From assembly GCF_017876675.1 (NCBI RefSeq), contig NZ_JAGIOI010000001.1, positions 2,604,001-2,668,000 of the forward strand: a stretch of 64,000 nt of DNA, written 5' to 3'. Below, piece by piece: positions 8,420 through 64,000 of the stretch. The notes below the pieces were generated by a model, which worked only from the letters and a program-made list of their open reading frames with translations, was not told the origin of the DNA and made no database searches. This DNA is from Arthrobacter stackebrandtii (GTDB taxonomy: Bacteria > Actinomycetota > Actinomycetes > Actinomycetales > Micrococcaceae). How positions within the stretch are numbered: position 1 is the first letter of the stretch; every line of letters starts with the position of its first letter. The translations under genes and the position numbers were made by a program.

Positions 8420-9112
8420 CTATAGCCGATGCAGCGCGGGCACATCCACCAGCTCAATGGTGCGGCGCGGGTGCTGGCGGATCATCCCGGCGTCCTCGAA
8501 CTGGGTCAACTTTCGGCTGAGCGTCTCCGGCGTGAGCCCCAGAAAGGATGCGACATCCTTCTTGGCGATGGGCAGCGGGAATTTCGCCGTGGGGTGTTCG
8601 TCCGCCAGCTCCAGCAGGTAGGCGGCCAGCCGGTGGTCGGCATCCTCCCCGGCCAAGGCGCTCAGCTGCCGTTCGGTGCTTTCCAGCCGGCTGCTCAGGG
8701 TCTCCAGCATCTTGTATGTGACGCTGGGGTAGCGCAGGAGGTAGTCGCGGAGGTCGTCGTGGTGCAGCGCGCAGATCTCAGCCGTCTCAAGCGTGGTGGC
8801 AAAGTGGTCCTTGGGTGCGCCGCTTATGAAGCTCATGTCGCCAAGGAAGTCGCCCTCGCCCAGCACCCGGATCAACTGCTCATGCCCGGACTCGGTGATC
8901 CGGAAAATCTTCACCTGCCCGCTGTGGATGATCATCAGGAACGGGTTGTTCTCGCCCGCCCCATACAGCTGCTCGTTTCGAACATGGCGCCGCAGCCGCA
9001 CCCGCCCGGCAATTTCCTGGAGTTCCTCCGGCGCGAGCCCGGCAAAAATGGGGACGCGCCCCACCAGAACCTCCAGTGGAGCGTGCCCATGGACTGCAGA
9101 TTTGTGTGCCAT
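8420..9112 (-). CDS. Crp/Fnr-family transcriptional regulator with FNR-type recognition helix
   Basis: 230 residues: an N-terminal cyclic-nucleotide-like sensor barrel (about 15-130), a dimer helix, and a C-terminal winged helix. The recognition helix reads LTPETLSRKL, keeping the Glu-x-x-Ser-Arg set that in FNR contacts TTGA half-sites; two such palindromes flank its gene cluster. Only one Cys is present (EICALHH), so it cannot hold an FNR [4Fe-4S] cluster. The signal is therefore unknown and could be redox, heme, nitric oxide or a small ligand. It lies 17 bases after the HMA chaperone gene and is likely co-transcribed with it. Confidence 0.9.
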   Translation of the reverse strand: MAHKSAVHGHAPLEVLVGRVPIFAGLAPEELQEIAGRVRLRRHVRNEQLYGAGENNPFLMIIHSGQVKIFRITESGHEQLIRVLGEGDFLGDMSFISGAPKDHFATTLETAEICALHHDDLRDYLLRYPSVTYKMLETLSSRLESTERQLSALAGEDADHRLAAYLLELADEHPTAKFPLPIAKKDVASFLGLTPETLSRKLTQFEDAGMIRQHPRRTIELVDVPALHRL

Positions 9113-14602: not shown

Positions 14603-14848
14603 ATGAAGTCAGCACAGATCGCAACTGTCGCCGCGGACACCAGTGACCCGCGTGCCGGGCTGCGGGCCATCGCTTCCCTCCGTGCACTCACTGAGAGACT
14701 CGAACTCGCGCAGGTTGAGGCGGGTCTGGTTTTGGGCATGAGCTGGCAGAACATCGCCGATGCCCTCGGAGTCTCCAGGCAAGCAGTTCATAAGAAGTAC
14801 GCCAAGAAGGTGGACCAGAGCATCCCCGTTCCAAGGAGGAACCATTGA
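14603..14848 (+). CDS. Small helix-turn-helix protein
   Basis: 81 residues. The HTH is clear: MSWQNIADALGVSRQAVHKKYAKK, like the sigma-70 region-4/AsnC-type fold found in small actinobacterial proteins paired with Clp-N-domain proteins. The N-terminal half (LRAIASLRALTERLELAQVEAGLVLG) is helical and probably dimerises. The stop overlaps the TTG start of the next gene, so translation is likely coupled. It may act as an autoregulator at the upstream repeats. Confidence 0.8.
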   Translation: MKSAQIATVAADTSDPRAGLRAIASLRALTERLELAQVEAGLVLGMSWQNIADALGVSRQAVHKKYAKKVDQSIPVPRRNH

Positions 14849-15843
14849 GTAAGTTCACCGACGCGGCAACAACATCGCACACGCTCTCGGTTGTCGCCAT
14901 GGAGGAAGCCTCCCGCTTCGGCCAGCGCAGCACGGACATTGACCACATGCTTCTTGCCCTGGTGGTCAGTGAGCAGGTCGCCGGACAGGTATTGCGCAGT
15001 GAGGGGATCACGCTTGAAGCGGCGCGGGGCGCGGTTGCAGAGCAGCATTCAGTTCAACTCGCCTCACTCGGCATTAGCTCCGGACTCCCGCCGCAAGGTC
15101 GGATCGTCTTCCATGAAACTGGAGGCTACGAGTGGAGCGAGCGCGCCATGGCGGTCATCAAGCGTGCCAGCGGCGGCGAGAAGCGAGGCGACGCTGCCGC
15201 CGTGCTGCGCGAACTCGTCACGGAACCCAGCGGCATGATCGACCAAGTACTACAGCGTCTCGGCTCCGCGTCCGATCTGGTGATCGCACGACTCGATGAA
15301 GTTCAGGGCTACCCGGCGCTCACACCAAAACACGCCATCCAACCGGGCCGGCGCTCGGGAGCCTGCGAGGCATTCGTCCCGGCTCCGGTCGGGCAGGTCT
15401 GGGAACTGCTCAGCAGTCAAAAACGGATGCCTGAATGGGAACCGGTGATTGGTGATGTCGAGCTCGAAGAACCGCAGACAGAACCGCAGGTGGGCGATCG
15501 CTGGACAACGCATGCCCGCACGCAGCGGTCTGATGGAAAAGCGATTCGGATCAAGCCTGAATTCCAGGCTCAGGATGTTGAGCTTGTCTCATGCACAGAA
15601 GAGGCACTGATCGAGTGGCGGTTCACTTATCCCGATTCAGCACGGGCCAGCGTGAAACGAATTCGGATCGGATTGGAGCCCGCAGCTGGCGGTACCCAGC
15701 TGCGCATCTCGTTATGGTGGGAACGCAACTCCGATAGCCCTGCTCGCCCGATCCGGGGACTGCTGACCCGCCCGCTCGTGCGCTTCGGGATCTGGATGCA
15801 GCTGTCGCAACTGAGCGGTGGCATCAGCCGAGCATTTCGCTAA
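14845..15843 (+). CDS. Clp N-domain protein fused to an SRPBCC domain
   Basis: 332 residues starting at TTG, which overlaps the preceding TGA, with AAGGAGGA upstream. Residues 1-140 form a double Clp-N-type domain (EEASRFGQRSTDIDHMLLALV, then ERAMAVIKRASGGEKRGDAAAVLRELV), the substrate/adaptor-binding part of ClpA/ClpC, but no AAA+ module follows. Residues about 170-333 are an SRPBCC/START-like ligand barrel (ACEAFVPAPVGQVWELLS). The combination suggests a small-molecule sensor or adaptor for a Clp machine; that role is inference. A two-helix membrane protein gene follows. Confidence 0.8.
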   Translation: MSKFTDAATTSHTLSVVAMEEASRFGQRSTDIDHMLLALVVSEQVAGQVLRSEGITLEAARGAVAEQHSVQLASLGISSGLPPQGRIVFHETGGYEWSERAMAVIKRASGGEKRGDAAAVLRELVTEPSGMIDQVLQRLGSASDLVIARLDEVQGYPALTPKHAIQPGRRSGACEAFVPAPVGQVWELLSSQKRMPEWEPVIGDVELEEPQTEPQVGDRWTTHARTQRSDGKAIRIKPEFQAQDVELVSCTEEALIEWRFTYPDSARASVKRIRIGLEPAAGGTQLRISLWWERNSDSPARPIRGLLTRPLVRFGIWMQLSQLSGGISRAFR

Positions 15844-15859
15844 TTGGTCCAGAGGAGCA

Positions 15860-16111
15860 ATGTTGATGAAACGAGCCGCGCAAGTTTTTCTCGGGATAGT
15901 CATGATCGCCGTGCTGTTCGCATGGGTGATCTTGAGGCATGAAGAACCTCTCAGCGAGTGGGCGAGCAGCAGCAATTTTGTCGGTTGGGCCTTCCACGGT
16001 TTTGCCTTGCTCAGCTTTCTCGGCGGTACCGCACTCATCGCCACCGCATGGGCGCACGGACGCGAGGACGGGCGTGACGGCATCACCGGAGATCCTGAAA
16101 CGGATGAGTAA
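15860..16111 (+). CDS. Small two-helix membrane protein
   Basis: 83 residues. Two hydrophobic segments (AQVFLGIVMIAVLFAWVIL and FHGFALLSFLGGTALIATAW) are joined by an acidic loop; the C-terminal tail is acidic (DGRDGITGDPETDE). AGAGGAGC precedes the ATG at 15860. It follows the Clp-N/SRPBCC gene by 16 bases and is probably the third gene of that operon. I recognise no family. Confidence 0.7.
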   Translation: MLMKRAAQVFLGIVMIAVLFAWVILRHEEPLSEWASSSNFVGWAFHGFALLSFLGGTALIATAWAHGREDGRDGITGDPETDE

Positions 16112-16512
16112 GCAGCCTGAGGCACGTCAGGCTTGTCAAGGGTGTGGCGCGAAGCTCATGGATTTTCAGGGTTCCCGCAAGCCGGTTCATCGCTGACGCG
16201 TGCCACAAGTATTTCCACAATCAGCAAAACTGTTTGCTTCCACGGACACCACATTCCCGCATATCCAGCACGCAAAAAGCCCGGTGAAGGCGCCCCGTAC
16301 GGGACTGTTCATGGAACTGACGAGGGGCTGCGGATTGGTTGGTCCCGGGCATCAGAACTTCGGGGCGGATCGTGTCGAATGCGCCAAATCCTGTTGTCCA
16401 GCCAGTCGCTGCTGACATGGTTGAGAAAAGTCCCGGGGTGGCGTGAACGCGGAGTGCGCGACGGCGTGAGGCGGGGTGGGCACCCAACCAGGCTCACGCC
16501 GTCGTGCTGGGG
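16112..16512. other. Intergenic gap with no supported gene
   Basis: About 400 bases. A 30-codon frame from the ATG at 16105 has a CQGCG motif and stops at 16197; it is too short to call. Apart from the hairpin at 16459-16504, I see no promoter, RNA or repeat. It marks the right end of the 11.5-16.2 kb accessory segment. Confidence 0.4.
16459..16504 (-). terminator. Hairpin downstream of ddh
   Basis: CGACGGCGTGAG (16459-16470) pairs perfectly with CTCACGCCGTCG (16493-16504) around a 22-base loop that has a GGGTG/CACCC inner stem. It lies nine bases beyond the ddh stop. No T-run follows, which is common in high-GC actinobacteria. Confidence 0.6.
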
Positions 16513-17499
16513 TTAAAGCAGTTCCGCGCGCAGGTCAGCTGCGGACTTGGGGGACAGGAGGCCAGGGGCCACGTCGAACACCGTCTTGGCGCCGAACTGG
16601 CCGGAAGCGCTCATGCGGTGCACGGCGCGGGCGTAGGCCACCAGCACGCTGGAGGTGAACTCCGGGTTGCTCTCCAAGGCGAGCGAGTACTCGACGACCT
16701 GGGCGTGGCCGTCGGTGGTGTTGCCGCTGCGAATGACAAAACCGCCGTGCGGCATGGCTGAGTGGTCGCGGGCCAGCTCCTCGGCGGTGATGAAGTTGAC
16801 CGTGGTGTCGTACTGGTCAAAGTAGTGCGGCATGCCCACGATCTCGGCGCGGACGGCCTCCTCGGAGGCGCCCTCCGCCAGGACAACGAAGCATTCGCGG
16901 GTGTGCTTCTGGCGCGTGGAAAGCTCAGGACGCGAGCCGCTGCGGACCTCTGCAATGGCGGCCTCGGACGGCAGCGTGTACTGCACGCCGCCTGCAACGC
17001 CGGCCACGCGGCGGATGGCATCCGAATGGCCCTGGCTCAGGCCGCGGCCCCAGAACGTGTAGGTGTCGCCGTCGGGCAGCAGCGCCTCGCCGTAGACGCG
17101 GTTGATGGAGAACATGCCCGGGTCCCAGCCGGCGGAGATGAGCGCCGTCTTCCGTGCCGCCTGGGCGGGGGCGTCCACAGAAGCGAAGTACTCCGGGATG
17201 CGGGCGTGCGTGTCAAAGCTGTCCACCGTGTTGAACAGGGCGGCCAGTGCTGGGCCCTGCTCCGGGAGGTCGGACTTGGAACCGCCGCACAGGATCAAGA
17301 CGTCAACATCGCCCGCGTGGCCGGCCAGCTCATCCATGGAGAATACCGGCGCGCCCGCGTTCAGCGGAACCAGATCGGAGGGGTCGCGGCGGGTGTAAAT
17401 GCCTACCAGGGCCATGTCCGCGTTCTTGGCAATCGCTGCCTCAACCCCGCGGCCCAGGTTTCCGTAACCGGCAATTCCAATGCGAATCGGCGCGCTCAT
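16513..17499 (-). CDS. ddh: meso-Diaminopimelate D-dehydrogenase
   Basis: About 328 residues. The N-terminal Rossmann motif GIAGYGNLGRGVE (near residue 7) is followed by family segments ILCGGSKSDLP, FDTHARIPEYF, SAGWDPGMFSINR and FWGRGLSQGHSDAIR, which match NADP-dependent Ddh of Corynebacterium and Bacillus-type enzymes. It makes meso-diaminopimelate in one step from tetrahydrodipicolinate, or runs in reverse, for lysine and peptidoglycan supply. GGAG lies five bases before the ATG at 17499, so that start is preferred over the ATG five codons earlier. Confidence 0.92.
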   Translation of the reverse strand: MSAPIRIGIAGYGNLGRGVEAAIAKNADMALVGIYTRRDPSDLVPLNAGAPVFSMDELAGHAGDVDVLILCGGSKSDLPEQGPALAALFNTVDSFDTHARIPEYFASVDAPAQAARKTALISAGWDPGMFSINRVYGEALLPDGDTYTFWGRGLSQGHSDAIRRVAGVAGGVQYTLPSEAAIAEVRSGSRPELSTRQKHTRECFVVLAEGASEEAVRAEIVGMPHYFDQYDTTVNFITAEELARDHSAMPHGGFVIRSGNTTDGHAQVVEYSLALESNPEFTSSVLVAYARAVHRMSASGQFGAKTVFDVAPGLLSPKSAADLRAELL

Positions 17500-17653
17500 C
17501 TTTTCTCCATCCAATCATTGGGCCGCTCCTCGGCGGCGGCCGCTTTCACTATCGATAACGGTACAGTCTGCCGTGGTGCCGGTGCACAGCGGGACCGGCG
17601 GCCGGACGCGGCGGCCGGGGGCCGGCGTCGTGCATGGAAAGCGCGGCAAACCG

Positions 17654-17683
17654 TTGACATGCAAGTGACTGCTTGCCTATGGT
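17654..17683 (+). promoter_or_regulatory. Leaderless promoter of the ArsR-VOC pair with an inverted repeat
   Basis: TTGACA (17654-17659) and TATGGT (17678-17683) are spaced 18 bases; the GTG start is seven bases downstream. GCAAG-N6-CTTGC lies in the spacer and is a likely ArsR autoregulatory operator. Confidence 0.6.
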
Positions 17684-17689
17684 TGTCGT

Positions 17690-18016
17690 GTGGCAGATGT
17701 TTTCAAGGCCCTGGCCGATCCCACCCGGCGGATCATTCTCGATGAGCTGGCCGAGCGGGACGGGCAGACGCTCTTTGAGATCTGCACGCGCCTGCTCATG
17801 AAACACGGGCTGGCGTCGTCGCGGCAGGCGGTTTCACAGCACTTGGACGTGCTGGAATCGGCCGGGCTCGTTGAAACCATGCGTGAGGGACGCTACAAAT
17901 TCCATTACATCAACACCGCCCCGCTGGAACCGATCGTTGAGCGGTGGCTGGACAAATCCAAACCCAACGGAAGAAGGCACCCCGATGAGAATCCACCTGA
18001 CAAGCGTGTTCGTTGA
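17690..18016 (+). CDS. ArsR-family transcriptional regulator
   Basis: 108 residues with a GTG start and no leader. Winged-helix sequence VFKALADPTRRIILDELAERDGQTLFEIC is followed by the recognition helix SSRQAVSQHLDVLESAGLV, typical of ArsR/SdpR-type regulators. No clear metal-binding Cys cluster is seen. It overlaps the next gene, a VOC protein, by 32 bases in another frame; ArsR-VOC pairs of this kind are common in actinobacteria and presumably respond to the VOC substrate. Confidence 0.88.
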   Translation: MADVFKALADPTRRIILDELAERDGQTLFEICTRLLMKHGLASSRQAVSQHLDVLESAGLVETMREGRYKFHYINTAPLEPIVERWLDKSKPNGRRHPDENPPDKRVR

Positions 18017-58170: not shown

Positions 58171-59256
58171 GTGGCTCTTACTATTGGCATCGTCGGACTG
58201 CCCAACGTCGGCAAATCAACCCTTTTCAACGCACTGACCCGCAACAACGTGCTCGCAGCGAACTACCCGTTCGCCACGATCGAGCCCAACGTTGGCGTCG
58301 TCAGCCTGCCCGATCCCCGCCTGGCACAGCTGGCTGAGATCTTCGGATCCCAGCGCCTGCTGCCCGCCGTGGTCTCCTTCGTGGACATCGCCGGCATCGT
58401 CAAGGGCGCCTCGGAAGGTGAGGGCCTGGGCAACAAGTTCCTCGCCAACATCCGTGAGGCCGAGGCGATCGCCCAGGTCATCCGCGTGTTTGACGACCCC
58501 GATGTTGTCCACGTTGACGGCAAGGTTGACCCCAGCTCCGACATGGAGACCATCAACACTGAGCTGATTCTCGCAGACATGCAGACCATCGAGAAAGCGA
58601 TCCCGCGCGTCGAAAAGGCCGTCAAGCTCAAGCAGCGCGAAGCCGCTGAGCTCAACGCCATCAAGGCGGCCCAGGCTGTCCTTGAACGCGGCGACACCAT
58701 CTTCTCCTCCATCAAGAGCGACAAGCTGGAGATGGAACACCTGAAGGAGCTTGGCCTGCTCACGGCCAAGCCGTTCATCTATGTTTTCAACGTCGACGAC
58801 GCCGTCCTCGGCAACCCCGAGCGCCAGGAAGAGCTACGCGCACTGGTTGCCCCGGCCGACGCCATCTTCCTGGATGCCAAGCTGGAATCGGACCTTGTTG
58901 AGCTCGATGAGGACGAGGCCCGCGAGATGCTGGAAATGAGCGGGCAGGAAGAATCCGGCCTTGACCAGCTCGCCCGCGTCGGCTTCCACACGCTCGGCCT
59001 GCAGACCTACCTGACAGCCGGTCCCAAGGAGGCCCGCGCCTGGACCATCCACCAGGGCGACACTGCCCCCCAGGCTGCCGGTGTCATCCACACTGACTTC
59101 CAGCGCGGCTTCATCAAGGCCGAAGTTGTCCACTTCGACGACCTCATGGAGGCCGGCTCCATGCACGAGGCGAAGGCCAAAGGCAAGGTACGCATCGAAG
59201 GCAAAGAATATGTCATGCACGACGGCGACGTGGTTGAATTCCGCTTTAATGTATAG
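58171..59256 (+). CDS. ychF: Ribosome-associated ATPase YchF
   Basis: 361 residues, Obg-family. G1 is GLPNVGKST (9-17), G3 is VDIAG, and the NxxE-type NVDD motif replaces NKxD, consistent with ATP use. A C-terminal TGS domain ends in [14 protein letters not shown] start, leaderless: TAGAAT (58157-58162) is eight bases upstream. Copies of the last seven codons recur downstream, which suggests an attachment site at this 3' end. Confidence 0.95.
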
Positions 59257-59279
59257 TCGCGTTCCGCTTTAACATCTGA
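59233..59279 (+). repeat. ychF 3' end, first att-like copy with adjacent partial duplicate
   Basis: The gene end GTTGAATTCCGCTTTAATGT plus TAG (59233-59256) encodes VEFRFNV-stop. Six bases later TTCCGCTTTAACATCTGA (59262-59279) repeats the last codons as FRFNI-stop. These mark the left edge of the cassette segment. Confidence 0.7.
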
Positions 59280-59289
59280 CATTACGAAC

Positions 59290-59326
59290 GAAGCGCTCCC
59301 TGGATTCGGAATCCGGGGAGCGCTTC
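59290..59326 (+). terminator. ychF terminator hairpin
   Basis: GAAGCGCTCCC (59290-59300) pairs with GGGAGCGCTTC (59316-59326); the loop has GGATTC/GAATCC inner pairing. It lies 33 bases beyond the ychF stop and upstream of the acquired genes. Confidence 0.75.
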
Positions 59327-59451
59327 GTCGTGCATGCATATCGAGTCTGACTGCGCCTACTACTGTTCACCCGCCTCTTTCGCTATCGCTCGCCGAACGA
59401 CTCCGCCTCGGATCAAGATTGGTCAGGTGATCGCCATCGGGGTCCCACCGA

Positions 59452-60696
59452 TCATCGACACGCTCCGGTGCTGACATTTGGCGACACCGGAAGATCCAGT
59501 AGTTCCGCCTCCTCGGCATCGGCCGGGTCGTTCGAGGACACGCCTGTGAAGCGACGGCGACTCAAGAGCACGACCTGTCCGATCAAGAGCGCTCCGAGCG
59601 CGCTGAAGGCAGCGGCTGCAAGGGTAACTGCGCGTACTCCGAATCCGAGAGCGATGACCTGGCCGCCCGCCCAGGATCCGAGCGCTGCACCAAGGGCGAA
59701 TGCGGCCATGTTGACCGTCAGGGACAGGGTCGGAGCGTCTGCAGCAATGGTGAGGATCCGGACCTGGAGCCCAGGGATCAGAGCGAACGTCGCCACGGAG
59801 AACAGTACGAGGAGTACTGCACTTCCTACTGTGGACGGAGCAGCGAACCAGTACAGGACGCACACCGCGGCCAGCGTCCACGAGAGCCAGACAACGGTGG
59901 CTTCTACGGAGTGGTTGGCGCATCGGCCGCCGATGAAGTTGCCGACGATCGAGCCGACACCGTATGCAAGGAGTACTGCAGGGACCCACATGGCGGGGAG
60001 GCCCCCGATGTCGGTGAGCAGCGGCACCATGTAAGTGATCAGGGAGAACATGCCACCCGAGCACAGAACCGTGGCGAATACCGTGCCGATGACTTGCCAC
60101 TTCGCGACGGCTCGCAGCTCGTGTCTGACCGGGGTCCGCTCCGTGGCCTTGCCGTCGTCGGGAATCGCAATCAGGATCAGCACGGACGTGATCAGAGCGA
60201 GCACGGCGACGCTTCCGAACGTGGCTCGCCAATCGATCTGCTGCGCTACGAGCGTGCCGAAGGGAACCCCGAGCACTGTCGCCAGGTTCACGCCGAGCTG
60301 GGTGCCGGCTACGGCTGAGCCCTTCTTTCTCCCATCGGCCATGTTGCCCGCGGTTACGACGCACACGGCCATGAAGGTGCCTTGGGTGACGGCGGTAATC
60401 ATGCGACCGAGTAGCAGCAGCACGAACGTCGGCGCGAGGGCGCACGTGATGTTGCCCGCGACCGACACGAGTAGTAGCAGGACGAGTAGGCGCTTGCGGC
60501 GGACACGAGTGGTGATGGCTGTGACGATCGGGCCTCCGATCACCACTGTGAGTGCGTAGACCGTGACCAGCAGGCCCGCGGTGGGGATGGTCACCAACAG
60601 GTCGTGGGAGAGTTCGCCGAGCATCCCGCTGGGTGAGAGCTCGGCAGTGCCGACGCAGAAGATGCCGAGGATGAGTACGGCCATCCGGAAATACAT
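59452..60696 (-). CDS. MFS drug-type exporter
   Basis: 414 residues with twelve predicted membrane segments; the opening LILGIFCVGTAELSPSGMLGELSHDLLVTIPTAGLLVTVYALTVVIGGP is typical of the DHA1/Cmr-type MFS family. It likely exports a toxic small molecule. AAAGGAC lies five bases before the ATG at 60696. It follows a hydrolase gene on the same strand (26-base gap); both are probably controlled by the MerR regulator at 61350. GC is lower than the flanking core. Confidence 0.88.
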   Translation of the reverse strand: MYFRMAVLILGIFCVGTAELSPSGMLGELSHDLLVTIPTAGLLVTVYALTVVIGGPIVTAITTRVRRKRLLVLLLLVSVAGNITCALAPTFVLLLLGRMITAVTQGTFMAVCVVTAGNMADGRKKGSAVAGTQLGVNLATVLGVPFGTLVAQQIDWRATFGSVAVLALITSVLILIAIPDDGKATERTPVRHELRAVAKWQVIGTVFATVLCSGGMFSLITYMVPLLTDIGGLPAMWVPAVLLAYGVGSIVGNFIGGRCANHSVEATVVWLSWTLAAVCVLYWFAAPSTVGSAVLLVLFSVATFALIPGLQVRILTIAADAPTLSLTVNMAAFALGAALGSWAGGQVIALGFGVRAVTLAAAAFSALGALLIGQVVLLSRRRFTGVSSNDPADAEEAELLDLPVSPNVSTGACR

Positions 60697-60722
60697 GGAT
60701 GTCCTTTCGAGCCTCAACGGGT

Positions 60723-61289
60723 TCAGGGAATGATGGCGTCGTACGCGGCGGGCAGTGTGCTGTGGCCATCGGTGGCGAGGAAGTGCCCCGCGCCTGGGAC
60801 TACCAGTGCCCTGGCCTCGAGAAGGGCAGCCAGTCGATCTGTGTGGGGTGGCGGTACGAGGGGGTCGTCATCGGAGCGAATCACGATGATCTCGTCGATG
60901 TGTCCGCGCAATCTGGTCACATCGCAACCGACGCCGATGAACTCGTCCAGTTCCGGAAGTGCCGGAAGCAGGTCGAGGAACCCTGAGACCAGGACCAGAC
61001 GTCCCAGCCTCCACGCTCCGGAGAGGGACGCCAGGTGCCGCAGTACGGCGAGGCAGCCGAGGCTGTGCGCAATCAGCGCCGTACTCTTGTCTGTCTCGCC
61101 CACCGCAGCACGAACGGTGTCCTGCCACCGCGGCGCATCGGGAGTGAGGGAGTCAGGCAGCTTGGGGACGGCAGCCCGCATGTTGGCGCGGTCGAACTCT
61201 TTGGCGAGCCAGCCGAACCAGTGATCCCCCGGGGTGGCCGCGTAGCCGTGGAAGATATAAGCGTTCTGGAGCGTTGCTGAAGTAGTCAT
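60723..61289 (-). CDS. Alpha/beta hydrolase, RBBP9/YdeN-like
   Basis: 188 residues. AYIFHGYAATPGDHWFGWLAKEF opens the RBBP9-type small hydrolase fold; the nucleophile is in AHSLGC and the catalytic His in VPGAGHF. The substrate is unknown. It is the first gene of the hydrolase-MFS operon. The MerR-type promoter at 61299-61328 drives it. Confidence 0.82.
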   Translation of the reverse strand: MTTSATLQNAYIFHGYAATPGDHWFGWLAKEFDRANMRAAVPKLPDSLTPDAPRWQDTVRAAVGETDKSTALIAHSLGCLAVLRHLASLSGAWRLGRLVLVSGFLDLLPALPELDEFIGVGCDVTRLRGHIDEIIVIRSDDDPLVPPPHTDRLAALLEARALVVPGAGHFLATDGHSTLPAAYDAIIP

Positions 61290-61298
61290 GAAAGAAAA

Positions 61299-61328
61299 CG
61301 TATGACCTGACGCTAGCGTGAAGGTCAA
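61299..61328 (-). promoter_or_regulatory. MerR-type promoter with dyad in the spacer
   Basis: On the minus strand TTGACC (61323-61328) and CATACG (61299-61304) are spaced 18 bases. The spacer holds the near-dyad GACC...GGTC at 61304-61326 with a GCTAGC centre. Such long-spacer promoters are activated by MerR-family proteins; the regulator gene starts 22 bases away on the plus strand. Confidence 0.6.
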
Positions 61329-61349
61329 ATCCTGAAGTAGGAGACAGCT

Positions 61350-61700
61350 GTGCAGATTGGCGAACTCGCCAGCAAGACTGGAGCCAGTCCCCGTGCGTTG
61401 CGCCATTACGAGGAGCGAGGGCTCATCGTCCCTGAGCGCACTAGCGGAGGCTACCGTGCCTACTCGCAAGACGACATCGTTCGCGTTGCACAGATTAAGA
61501 CCATGATCGACGCTGGCCTGACCACTGCGTCCATCAAGCGCTACATCGCCTGTGCCCGCGACGGAGACCACGGCACCTGGCTCGAACTGTGCCCGAATCT
61601 CCGCGCCGAGCTAGCCTCAGTTGCTGAATGCCTCGACGCCAAGCAGGCTGAGCTGTCTGAGCGGAAGCTACGACTTCACGCTCTCGCGTCTGTGGGCTGA
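61350..61700 (+). CDS. MerR-family transcriptional regulator
   Basis: 116 residues, GTG start with AGGAGACAGCT before it. The winged HTH QIGELASKTGASPRALRHYEERGLIVPERTSGGYRAYSQDDIVRVAQI is followed by a short coiled-coil. The C-terminal effector part is minimal, typical of small MerR activators of exporter genes. Divergent from the hydrolase-MFS operon. Confidence 0.9.
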   Translation: MQIGELASKTGASPRALRHYEERGLIVPERTSGGYRAYSQDDIVRVAQIKTMIDAGLTTASIKRYIACARDGDHGTWLELCPNLRAELASVAECLDAKQAELSERKLRLHALASVG

Positions 61701-61825
61701 GGAGCATCGAGTGCCTCAGGCAGCTAGCGGGCTTGGAAACGCCCCAGTTCTTCGCGTACGAGCGATCCAGATGGCTGAGCCTGAATGAGAATGGGACTGT
61801 TGCCGACTCTGTGCATGGTGCTTCC

Positions 61826-61875
61826 ACAGGTTGGTATGTACCGGAACTCGGTCGAGTTTCGGTTTAACGTCTAGC
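61826..61875 (+). repeat. ychF-end repeat copy B
   Basis: The last 24 bases (61852-61875) encode VEFRFNV-stop, as in ychF. The preceding CACAGGTTG and TGTACCGGAA are shared with copy C: 44 of 49 positions match between 61826-61874 and 63079-63127. No ychF coding sequence lies upstream. Confidence 0.8.
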
Positions 61876-61907
61876 GTTATTGACGGTGTCCGTTATAGAC
61901 TGGTCGC

Positions 61908-62189
61908 GTGATCAGATCGTTCGGCAGCAAGGACACCGAGCGCATCTGGCATGAGCAGTACGTCAAGCGCGTTGACCGGACGGTGCAGCGGGCGGCCTTG
62001 CGGAAGCTCGAGCTGATCCATGCGGCGCAGGATGTCGAAGACCTCAGGGTCCCGCCGGGCAACCGCCTGGAGCGGCTGGTGGGTAATCGACGCGGGCAGC
62101 ACAGCATCCGCGTGAACGCGCAATGGCGTCTCTGCTTCGTCTGGAGAGAGGGAGGTGCGGACAATGTCGAATTCGTCGACTACCACTGA
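61908..62189 (+). CDS. higB: HigB/RelE-type toxin
   Basis: 93 residues, GTG start 32 bases after ychF copy B. The sequence FGSKDTERIWHEQYVKRVDRTVQRAALRKLELIHAA, LRVPPGNRLERLVGNRRGQHSIRVNAQWRLCFVWREGGADNVEFVDYH fits the HigB toxin fold, a ribosome-dependent mRNA interferase. It overlaps higA by 26 bases. Toxin-first order is typical of HigBA. Confidence 0.88.
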   Translation: MIRSFGSKDTERIWHEQYVKRVDRTVQRAALRKLELIHAAQDVEDLRVPPGNRLERLVGNRRGQHSIRVNAQWRLCFVWREGGADNVEFVDYH

Positions 62190-62484
62190 GGCCGGCCTGA
62201 TCGAGCCGATCCACCCGGGAGAGATCCTGATGGAGGATTTCATTGAGGGCTTCGGGATCACGCAGAACAAGCTTGCCGTGTCCATCGGTGTGCCGCCGCG
62301 CCGGGTCAACGAGATTGTGCACGGCAAGCGGGGGATCACCGCAGACACGGCGATCCGTCTGGCGCGCTATTTCGGGACCTCCGAGGAGTTCTGGATGAAC
62401 CTGCAGTCGAACTACGAGCTGCGGCTCGAGCGCCGTGCACTGCGCGACAAGGTTGCCGCGATCACGCCGTTGCAGGTCGCATGA
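62164..62484 (+). CDS. higA: HigA-type antitoxin (XRE family)
   Basis: 106 residues. IHPGEILMEDFIEGFGITQNKLAVSIGVPPRRVNEIVHGKRGITADTAIRLARYFGTSEEFWMNLQ is a typical HigA HTH. It should neutralise HigB and repress the operon. GGGAGG lies upstream of the ATG at 62164. Its stop overlaps the kinase start by four bases. Confidence 0.9.
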   Translation: MSNSSTTTEAGLIEPIHPGEILMEDFIEGFGITQNKLAVSIGVPPRRVNEIVHGKRGITADTAIRLARYFGTSEEFWMNLQSNYELRLERRALRDKVAAITPLQVA

Positions 62485-63026
62485 CCTCTGGGGTGACCGG
62501 CTCTGAGAGTTCTCGTCTGATCATCATCCGCGGGAACTCGGGCAGCGGGAAGTCGCATTTGGCGCAGGCGATCCGAGCTGCGCGTCCGCGCGGCGTGGCG
62601 ATCATCGGCCATGACGTGCTTCGGCGAGAGATCCTCCACGTTCGCGATCATCCGGGTGCGTTGAGCGTGCCGTACATCGATCTGTCGGCGCGGTTCGCGC
62701 TCGACAACGGTCTCGACGTCGTGATCGAAGGCATCCTGCATTCCGAGAGCTATGGCGAGATGCTCGCTCAGCTGCGAAAAGATCATGCTGGTCTGACTCG
62801 CTGCTACTGCTATGAACTCGACCTCGACGAGACGCTCGAACGGCATCGAACGAAGGCATTGGCCGATGAGGTGTCGGAGGCCGATGTCGCGTCCTGGTAC
62901 CGCAGTGCGGACCGGGTCCCCGCCCTGGATGAGTCAGTATTCGATGCCACAGTCAGCGCTGCTGACGCTCTGCAGCGGGTCCTCGTGGACGCGGGGTGGG
63001 GCGAGACGCCCGACATCGGTTCATGA
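62481..63026 (+). CDS. P-loop kinase, zeta-toxin-like, linked to HigBA
   Basis: 181 residues. Walker A is IIIRGNSGSGKSHLAQAIRAA, followed by a DVLRREIL segment, VVIEGIL and an Arg-rich RHRTKA lid. The fold resembles zeta-toxin/chloramphenicol-phosphotransferase-like kinases. ATGA overlap with higA implies coupled expression, so the three genes act as a unit. Whether the kinase is a toxin, a regulator or an unrelated cargo enzyme cannot be read from the sequence. Confidence 0.75.
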   Translation: MTSGVTGSESSRLIIIRGNSGSGKSHLAQAIRAARPRGVAIIGHDVLRREILHVRDHPGALSVPYIDLSARFALDNGLDVVIEGILHSESYGEMLAQLRKDHAGLTRCYCYELDLDETLERHRTKALADEVSEADVASWYRSADRVPALDESVFDATVSAADALQRVLVDAGWGETPDIGS

Positions 63027-63078
63027 CTGACGCTTGTGCTGCCCTTCCCCTACATGGTGCGGTCGAGCCGAACTACAT

Positions 63079-63128
63079 CACAGGTTGCTCTGTACCGGAA
63101 TTAGGTGGAGTTTCGGTTTAACGTCTAA
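63079..63128 (+). repeat. ychF-end repeat copy C
   Basis: The last 24 bases (63105-63128) encode VEFRFNV-stop. The upstream 25 bases match copy B closely. It closes the HigBA-kinase block. Confidence 0.8.
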
Positions 63129-63280
63129 AAGCGCTGGTCAAGCGCGGTTTTCAGAGAATGGCGTCGGTCTCGTGCTGTTCCGGTTCAAGGCCTCAACTCA
63201 CGAGTAGGACGCACTCTAGGATTGAGACAGACGGCCGACATTGACGACGTTGTACCCCGCTGAACGACGAAGAGGTGCAG

Positions 63281-63784
63281 ATGGAAGCGCGACCTATCGA
63301 TCCGACTCAGGCCATGGCTGTGCAACGCATCATGGAGTCCAACGCTGAGTAATCGCGTCGCGTTGAAGGAGCTGCGCCGAAGCCAACCGCTGCTGACGAA
63401 GCACTGTCCGCCCTCCCGCCTGGCGTGCCGGTCTCGCAGAAGATCGATCTCGGACTGTGGGACGGGCAAGAGCTCGTCGCCGTTGCTGACGTGATCATTG
63501 GATGGCCCGCCGAATCTGTTGCTCATATCGGCCTGCTGATGACGGACAGTGCTTGTCAAGGTGCGGGCCTCGGCCGGCTGATCCATGAGGCTGTGATCGA
63601 ACTGGCGCGTCGGGTGCCGAGCATCCATACGCTCCGGCTGTCGATCGTGGAGACGAACGCCGATCTGGTCGCGCCGTTCTGGACGAAGATCGGTTACGAG
63701 CACACAGGGGAAGCGGTCCCGTACATTTCGGGCAGTGTGGAGTCGGTTGCTCGAATCTGGACGCGGTCGGTGGCCGCCGCATAG
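63281..63784 (+). pseudogene. GNAT acetyltransferase gene with an in-frame TAA
   Basis: A continuous GNAT frame of 167 codons is broken only by TAA at 63350-63352 (codon 24). Upstream MEARPIDPTQAMAVQRIMESNAE and downstream SRRVEGAAPKPTAADEALSALPPGVP read as one protein; a Tyr codon would fit at the stop. The acetyl-CoA loop is present (SACQGAGLGRLIHEAV). A restart at 63425 would lack the N-terminus. Confidence 0.75.
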
Positions 63785-63803
63785 ATGTTCCGCAAGTGAC
63801 GAA

Positions 63804-63832
63804 ACTCGGTGGAGTTTAGATTTTCAAACTAA
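63804..63832 (+). repeat. ychF-end repeat copy D, diverged
   Basis: ACTCGGTGGAGTTT (63804-63817) matches copy B at 13 of 14 positions; 63809-63832 reads VEFRFSN-stop. It ends the GNAT block. Confidence 0.55.
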
Positions 63833-63999
63833 CCTCTGAGATCATCTGCAGAAGAGGGCTCTAGCCTTCGCACGCGAAGTCGCAACGCGCTTGCGGCGAA
63901 CCTTGCGGCCTCCTGGGTTCCGAAGGCGACATGGAAGTCGGGGTTCGTTTCGTACTGGTCCGCGAGACCTCGGATCATGTCGACGGACTTCGCCGTATC
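63829..63999 (-). CDS. Partial protein of unknown function, truncated by the window edge
   Basis: 57 codons are visible at the C-terminus (DTAKSVDMIRGLADQYETNP, then FHVAFGTQEAARFAASALRL). The stop lies inside repeat copy D. The sequence suggests a helical domain. I cannot assign a family. Confidence 0.45.
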   Translation of the reverse strand, partial: DTAKSVDMIRGLADQYETNPDFHVAFGTQEAARFAASALRLRVRRLEPSSADDLRG

Positions 64000-64000
64000 T

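Follow-up and report, generated by a model that had tools for sequence, protein, structure and literature searches.

Integrons, the textbook case of single genes collected at one place, gather cassettes at one site by means of a tyrosine integrase, IntI, and of attC sites that fold as imperfect hairpins. In staphylococci, staphylococcal cassette chromosome (SCC) and pseudo-SCC elements are inserted by serine recombinases at the 3' end of the housekeeping gene rlmH; the gene end is re-created and recombinase-less elements stack, each element being tens of kb long. The pdif modules of Acinetobacter plasmids, which depend on XerC/XerD, are small, often encode toxin-antitoxin pairs, are bounded by short sites and carry no recombinase of their own. 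Here, we describe an array of small units located behind ychF in a 64,000-nucleotide stretch of Arthrobacter stackebrandtii DNA (contig NZ_JAGIOI010000001.1, positions 2,604,001 to 2,668,000; hereafter, the window); no description of such an array was found within searches of open libraries. We consider it probable, at about 0.68, that serine recombinases of phages or phage satellites inserted enzyme-less cassettes at the ychF end one after another, exchanging the YchF tail, with the enzymes presumably acting in trans and the site presumably being re-created.

A preliminary description of this DNA had noted that the ychF tail recurs without upstream ychF coding sequence. Indeed, exact matches to a degenerate VEFRFNV-stop pattern lie at 59233 (the ychF end), 61851 and 63105, all on the + strand, with 0 matches on the - strand of the window. 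The second and third copies (B and C) are alike at 44 of 49 bases (90% of 49), as had been stated; copy B is real, although its coordinates had been off by one and are 61851-61874, and a diverged copy, correctly located at 63809-63832, proved to encode an alternative YchF tail, VEFRFSN-stop, that recurs at one place in a relative (G045; G and L numbers are our handles for genomes and loci). Base composition predicts ~2.6e-7 exact matches in 64 kb. In a search of ten whole genomes, 40 exact sites were found, 39 of them at ychF on the ychF strand, compared to 0 matches for a reversed-pattern control in the same genomes. Chance repeats are ruled out by this expectation and control. The lone exception lies on the second replicon of G014, 3' of a ychF fragment; at this place (G014:C2; L056 10322-10978), a C-terminal fragment ending in VEFRFNV-stop is followed by a HigBA-like left end. 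The features of the array in the window, in which the block contents agree with those first reported (MFS, serine hydrolase and MerR; HigB, HigA and an AAA, zeta-like, kinase; GNAT), are as follows:

58171-59256, + strand: ychF, whose start is read as GTG from the sequence; the final 24 bases and the ~26 preceding them form the proposed docking site
59233-59256, + strand: right half at the ychF end (VEFRFNV-stop, B-type distance)
59256-59279, + strand: short second copy of the right half, 23 bp past the first, directly 3' of ychF
59288-59328, + strand: inverted repeat directly behind ychF, with arms of 20 nt that are 95% complementary
59257-61850, no strand: unit 1, with an MFS transporter (59452-60717, -), a serine hydrolase (60723-61571, -, longest open reading frame) and a MerR regulator (61350-61700, +)
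61825-61874, + strand: array site B, with P-left arm 61825-61850 and right half 61851-61874 (VEFRFNV-stop)
61875-63104, + strand: unit 2, HigBA-led, with overlapping reading frames for higB (61908-62189), higA (62155-62484) and an AAA/zeta-like kinase (62481-63026)
63079-63128, + strand: array site C, with P-left arm 63079-63104 and right half 63105-63128 (VEFRFNV-stop)
63129-63808, + strand: unit 3, with a GNAT acetyltransferase (63425-63784)
63783-63832, + strand: array site D, diverged, with right half 63809-63832 (VEFRFSN-stop)
63833-64000, no strand: start of unit 4 (MerR/TipAS regulator, DUF2268, others), which leaves the window and reaches site G000:C1:2671373

The array extends past the window, with further sites at G000:C1:2671373, 2672719 and 2673769. 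The inverted repeat at 59288-59328 is likely the current ychF terminator, supplied by unit 1. A partial second right-half copy 23 bp past the first is also present at G010 629 and 1557, G018 5882, G026 8558, G032 1257 and L220 1001. No recombinase was seen in the own array, in agreement with the earlier remark that no integrase is visible there, and no integrase, capsid or packaging genes were found among the ten own-array proteins scanned.

Up to 20 kb behind ychF were compared between this genome and 39 relatives, of which 21 belong to the genus and 18 to the family or order, with stretches stopping at 20 kb or at contig ends; ychF itself was found in 58 of 58 relatives. Under a strict rule requiring at most one mismatch in both bounding sites, units are present in 23 of the 40 loci (57 units, median 1.5 kb). 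A loose rule, which takes degenerate sites and also scores as a unit any copy of a conserved operon flanked by them, yields at least one unit in 31 loci and at least two in 22, giving 81 units with a median of 1.7 kb and a 10th-90th percentile range of 0.65-5.1 kb. The longest runs comprise about nine units in tandem. The conserved operon (kinase-like, DUF3090, histidine phosphatase) starts 75, 114 and 151 bp 3' of ychF in G013, G006 and G017, respectively, and 17.9 kb 3' of ychF in G016. Similarly, among the ten loci with the original ychF terminator at a site, this terminator stands at ychF in G013 and G017 and at a distal site in the other eight (G005, G014, G015, G016, G019, G021, G022 and G029), displaced by 1.2-17.8 kb. 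Because terminator and operon are found far downstream, units have come to stand between ychF and its original end. Across the 39 relatives, loci are near-empty or filled, and unit content and order vary rather than being fixed. Together, these comparisons argue firmly for serial insertion, and they support the original suggestion that insertion re-creates the ychF 3' end.

Beyond the 40 loci, a class-wide search with the strict pattern found sites in 8 of 394 genomes, a lower bound; three were already in the sample, and four of the five new loci encode proteins of units from the 40 loci. The consensus site also occurs in 3 plasmid and 4 phage records, with the whole site in Nocardia farcinica only. 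In Nocardia farcinica (L110), array sites lie at 8731, 9461, 10714 and 12027, 5 kb past a ychF ending in VEFRHS-stop. One unit of the G016 array (L035 5680-8335) consists of a GntR regulator and a LeuA-type synthase gene, and a block containing a glycosyl-hydrolase-like gene and a transporter in another G016 unit (14730-17783) is 89% identical to a block 3' of the conserved operon in the own genome (L003 16565-19618). PF21804 transposases, found in one G016 unit, were rejected as the mover: this is a scattered transposase, present in 8 of 58 genomes and with 12 matches in the A. stackebrandtii genome of the window.

The units also recur as blocks with sharp edges. In G350, which belongs to another order, the 571-bp unit directly behind ychF contains a single DUF1801 gene and corresponds to the fifth unit of G026. 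The two copies are 95.5% identical over 603 bp, from left core -9 to right core +22, and contain no recombinase; identity drops to 25% and 23% in the 60 bp outside the unit edges, and the ychF genes of the two genomes are 76.2% identical over 517 bp. HigBA-led units, the class to which unit 2 of the window belongs, have the right half and higBA in common over ~0.43-0.65 kb from base 1 and then differ in their genes. Their 15 instances (12 of the 40 loci account for 13 of them, and Nocardia farcinica and a gut contig for one each) carry as third genes a zeta-like kinase, hydrolase, NUDIX, GNAT or aminoglycoside-adenylyltransferase-like gene, and they start at the identical core base after different left neighbours, twice directly behind ychF. 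In the gut contig (L112 11465-13755), two tandem HigBA copies follow ychF, and their cargo comprises a GNAT gene and one that is aminoglycoside-adenylyltransferase-like. So far as sequence can tell, these findings show that the units behave like discrete mobile blocks and that a single-gene unit without a recombinase has moved from site to site. Homologous recombination alone, by which arrays would be swapped between strains via ychF and the repeats without any site-specific enzyme, could draw on the 25-50 bp repeats and the conserved ychF, and it may aid shuffling and tail repair. As a full account, however, it is hardly credible, given the dissimilar flanks of the G350 and G026 unit and the single core base at which HigBA-led units begin behind different neighbours.

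The site itself is composed of a left half (CAGAGGTTGGTATGTGCCGGAACGTG) and a right half (GTGGAGTTCCGCTTCAACGTCTAG). When sites were selected solely by their left half, with a minimum of 18 of 26, the ychF strand yielded 53, the opposite strand 2 and shuffled DNA 3, and the right half is also present in 44 of the 53. In these 44 sites, the right half differs from its consensus at 126 of the 352 third codon positions and, for Arg, at 17 of the 44 first positions, but at just 54 of the 660 other positions. As the right halves vary like coding sequence even though they end no gene now, the array copies carry the mark of selection as coding ends, and each most likely once ended ychF.

Within the site, the inner motifs CGGAAC and GTTCCG mirror each other about a central GT. 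The outer motif lies at -25 on the left; on the right, its position is +14 in 63 array sites, a set from a covariation scan whose filter lost a small number of real sites, and +19 in nine sites with alternative tails, the tail L208 being left out. As a rule, the P and B half-sites of large serine recombinases differ by 5 bp in the outer motif, and the shift from +14 to +19 is likewise 5 bp. Given the outer motif at -25 on the left and +14 on the right, the array sites thus combine a P-left with a B-right half. Read as sequence, the sites match serine recombinase attachment sites in both position and half-site geometry. An outer inverted repeat seen by eye had raised the possibility of a folded, attC-like hairpin; this was rejected after a pairing and mutual-information scan of the 63 sites gave no helix-wide covariation.

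The preliminary description held that the recombination enzyme may come from elsewhere, and a good candidate is now at hand in a family of large serine recombinases that has this sequence as its own attachment site. When viral contigs were scanned, four proved to contain the exact site; three of these encode a protein of 454-474 aa with Resolvase and Recombinase domains, whose start lies 35-56 bp from the site. Relatives of this recombinase were identified at 18 viral and 10 genome loci. In 4 of the 18 viral and 6 of the 10 genome loci, the recombinase start is preceded, at a distance of 25-56 bp, by a site with at most one mismatch, so that the recombinase-adjacent core equals the target core, as for an attP, in 10 of 28 loci. 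Five further viral loci have the GTNGAGTTCCG core 39-112 bp upstream of the recombinase, and three viral loci comprise at most 15 bases upstream of the gene, too few for a site to be seen. By this position, the array sites look like serine-integrase attachment sites. Sinomonas sp. ASV486, Mycobacterium sp. ST-F2 and G216 each have an element (8.8, 10.3 and 8.0 kb, respectively) that fits exactly between ychF and a site and carries such a recombinase at its distal end; in G216, the conserved operon comes next. Scans of ten proteins from these elements identified head proteins in two of the elements, a terminase in one, and both a replication initiator and an endonuclease VII-like protein in one, and the three elements look like phage satellites. 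Among family genomes, 34 of 197 match the recombinase at E 1e-60, with three exceeding 350 bits. Seven other family genomes have either an enzyme with 49-56% identity to two from phages or, in one case, a broken piece at 72%; around these seven, ychF is in reach in three and a site lies downstream of the enzyme in four.

The existence of autonomous elements at ychF suggests an alternative in which each array site is an attR left behind by a serine-recombinase element that has since lost its body and enzyme to deletion, so that the array consists of remnant genes and nothing small is mobile. The P-left, B-right geometry of the array sites is that of an attR, and broken enzyme pieces occur in G002 and in the array of G084. 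We nevertheless regard decay as unlikely. An enzyme-less single-gene unit is common, site to site, to two orders, and HigBA-led units recur in 15 instances with varying third genes. Moreover, 14 recombinase queries (tblastn, E 1e-3) match only a broken piece in G002 in the 40 loci, although in the 10 loci where a good site accompanies the enzyme, the P-left arm is 25-56 bp away from it.

A second enzyme class has also to be considered. Tyrosine-integrase elements typically restore the gene end into which they insert, and in the Streptomyces satellite Mulchroom (L109 7314-7379), 42 bases of the ychF 3' end are found at the likely attP, 83 bp upstream of a small, 251-aa tyrosine integrase. A second recombinase class thus seems to use ychF, which is not mentioned in the searched passages of the Mulchroom paper. 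Against a tyrosine integrase of this kind as the mover of the array units, the ATGCAGGAC stretch of the Mulchroom attP is absent from the array sites. The half-site geometry suits a serine recombinase, and no tyrosine recombinase (PF00589) was present in the fetched ychF stretches among the matches listed. The Mulchroom enzyme itself was rejected as the mover, as relatives match it only weakly, in the common catalytic region (best E 1.1e-8), and we find a tyrosine integrase quite improbable here.

Where a recombinase follows ychF, YchF ends in VEFRHNTTSPQKK, VEFRHGQPSKSKS, VEFRFNATGSGNK, VEFRSGLTSGGKK or VEFRSGSASKR. Alternative tails are also encoded in four relatives in which no recombinase was found in the fetched stretch (VEFRHGITSAAQGKK, VEFRHGGPSGSGKK, VEFRFNTTSASKK and VEFRTGLTSGGKK), and an internal site in G023 retains the VEFRSGLTSGGKK tail. 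A 1.94-kb GmrSD unit directly behind ychF, common to G040 and G030 at 91.5%, is associated with the VEFRTGLTSGGKK tail in G040 and, in G030, with VEFRFNV followed by a GKK-stop relic. As the G030 version is net 5 bp shorter, its outer motif has moved from P to B distance. Relics of the GKK-stop type lie behind 4 of 108 VEFRFNV-type sites, compared to 0.32% in a control. Evidently, YchF tails have been exchanged.

These observations are consistent with the following mechanism. The last ~24 bases of ychF and the ~26 before them would form an attachment site for large serine recombinases of Actinomycetes phages and small phage satellites. Small units, mostly 0.6-5 kb, have entered at the ychF end serially, and each carries a YchF tail with a stop codon, often followed by a terminator, at its left end and a P-left arm at its right end; with every insertion, the old gene end would be pushed downstream to stay as the next array site. 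A helper recombinase would move enzyme-less units in trans, with crossover probably at the central GT (positions 0 and +1 of GTGGAG). Some units may enter with a P-type right half, giving YchF a ...TSGGKK-type tail; a later change to a B-type right half would restore the native VEFRFNV, reopen the docking site and lock the unit in.

Several observations weigh against this mechanism. In the left half of ychF, the motif peaks at -25 and also at -13, rather than at the B distance of -20. Right halves at unit left ends are mostly of B type, so canonical P x B recombination would need a conversion step or an unusual reaction, and the evidence for conversion consists of one good pair (G040/G030) and the 4 relics in 108 sites. 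No match to the main array arm was found in the viral contigs, and three named Microbacterium phages with related integrases do not have the core. Close relatives of the recombinase are rare, amounting to those three of 197 family genomes above 350 bits and the seven others. The own genome has a distant recombinase only (G000:C1:2971640-2973034, 520-aa frame, 210 bits), with no such core detected in its vicinity. Recombinases do occur close to array sites elsewhere in the family (L211-L213; L214, broken), so units may also lose their enzyme. Finally, the cargo, which includes toxin-antitoxin pairs, acetyltransferases, kinases, transporters and restriction genes (Pfam tallies of 74 and 84 array open reading frames (ORFs), covering the 25 commonest of 62 and 78 families), shows no supported enrichment for defence: PADLOC returned 29 model families for 74 and 52 for 84 array ORFs, compared to 28 for 53 window ORFs outside the array, a set that includes helicase-like matches.

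How, then, does the ychF array compare to described systems? As in integrons, small units, many of them toxin-antitoxin, are gathered at a single docking site, share one orientation with respect to it and are exchanged between species; the 40 loci contain 57 (strict rule) or 81 (loose rule) such small exchangeable units, and some units are common to different orders. In contrast to integrons, there is no integrase gene at the docking site and no IntI-type PF00589 match there among the matches listed, no attC-like fold is supported by covariation in 63 sites, the docking site lies within a coding gene, and units may hold several genes, on either strand. The earlier characterization as integron-like small units is thus upheld as regards exchangeable, discrete blocks and not in the strict sense, as neither IntI nor an attC structure was found. 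The likeness to SCC lies in insertion at a housekeeping-gene 3' end, re-creation of that end and tandem recombinase-less elements; here, however, the target is ychF rather than rlmH, the phylum and apparently also the recombinase are different, and the units are mostly 0.6-5 kb with one to few genes, up to about nine in a row. Like pdif modules, the units are small, lie between short sites and have no recombinase of their own, but all of their sites point in the same direction with respect to ychF and are linked to a chromosomal gene. The 8-10 kb ychF elements, with their head protein, replication initiator or terminase genes and serine integrase, resemble capsid-forming phage-inducible chromosomal islands (cf-PICIs), whereas own-array units have no integrase, capsid or packaging genes and would be passengers of such satellites. 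Phage integration in ychF is also reported from Streptococcus pneumoniae, with two papers naming the gene alongside attB. By the features tested, the ychF array works like an integron or a composite SCC island and is a member of neither; the arrangement appears integron-like, yet based on a different enzyme class.

We tentatively propose, as a wider idea that falls somewhat short of even odds, that these arrays represent a serine-recombinase gene-cassette system of independent origin across Actinomycetes. The ychF end would take the part of attI, enzyme-less cassettes of one to few genes would be exchanged between orders with a satellite recombinase acting in trans, and P-to-B conversion would repair the gene and reopen the dock, so that the array ratchets outward. 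The sites are candidate natural landing pads in actinobacteria. They also make it testable whether serine integrases move enzyme-less cassettes in trans, how direction is kept at a dock formed by the end of a host gene, and why YchF tolerates exchangeable tails. Integrons collect single genes at one place by means of a tyrosine recombinase; the ychF arrays of a large soil phylum follow a similar logic and appear to depend on phage and satellite serine recombinases.

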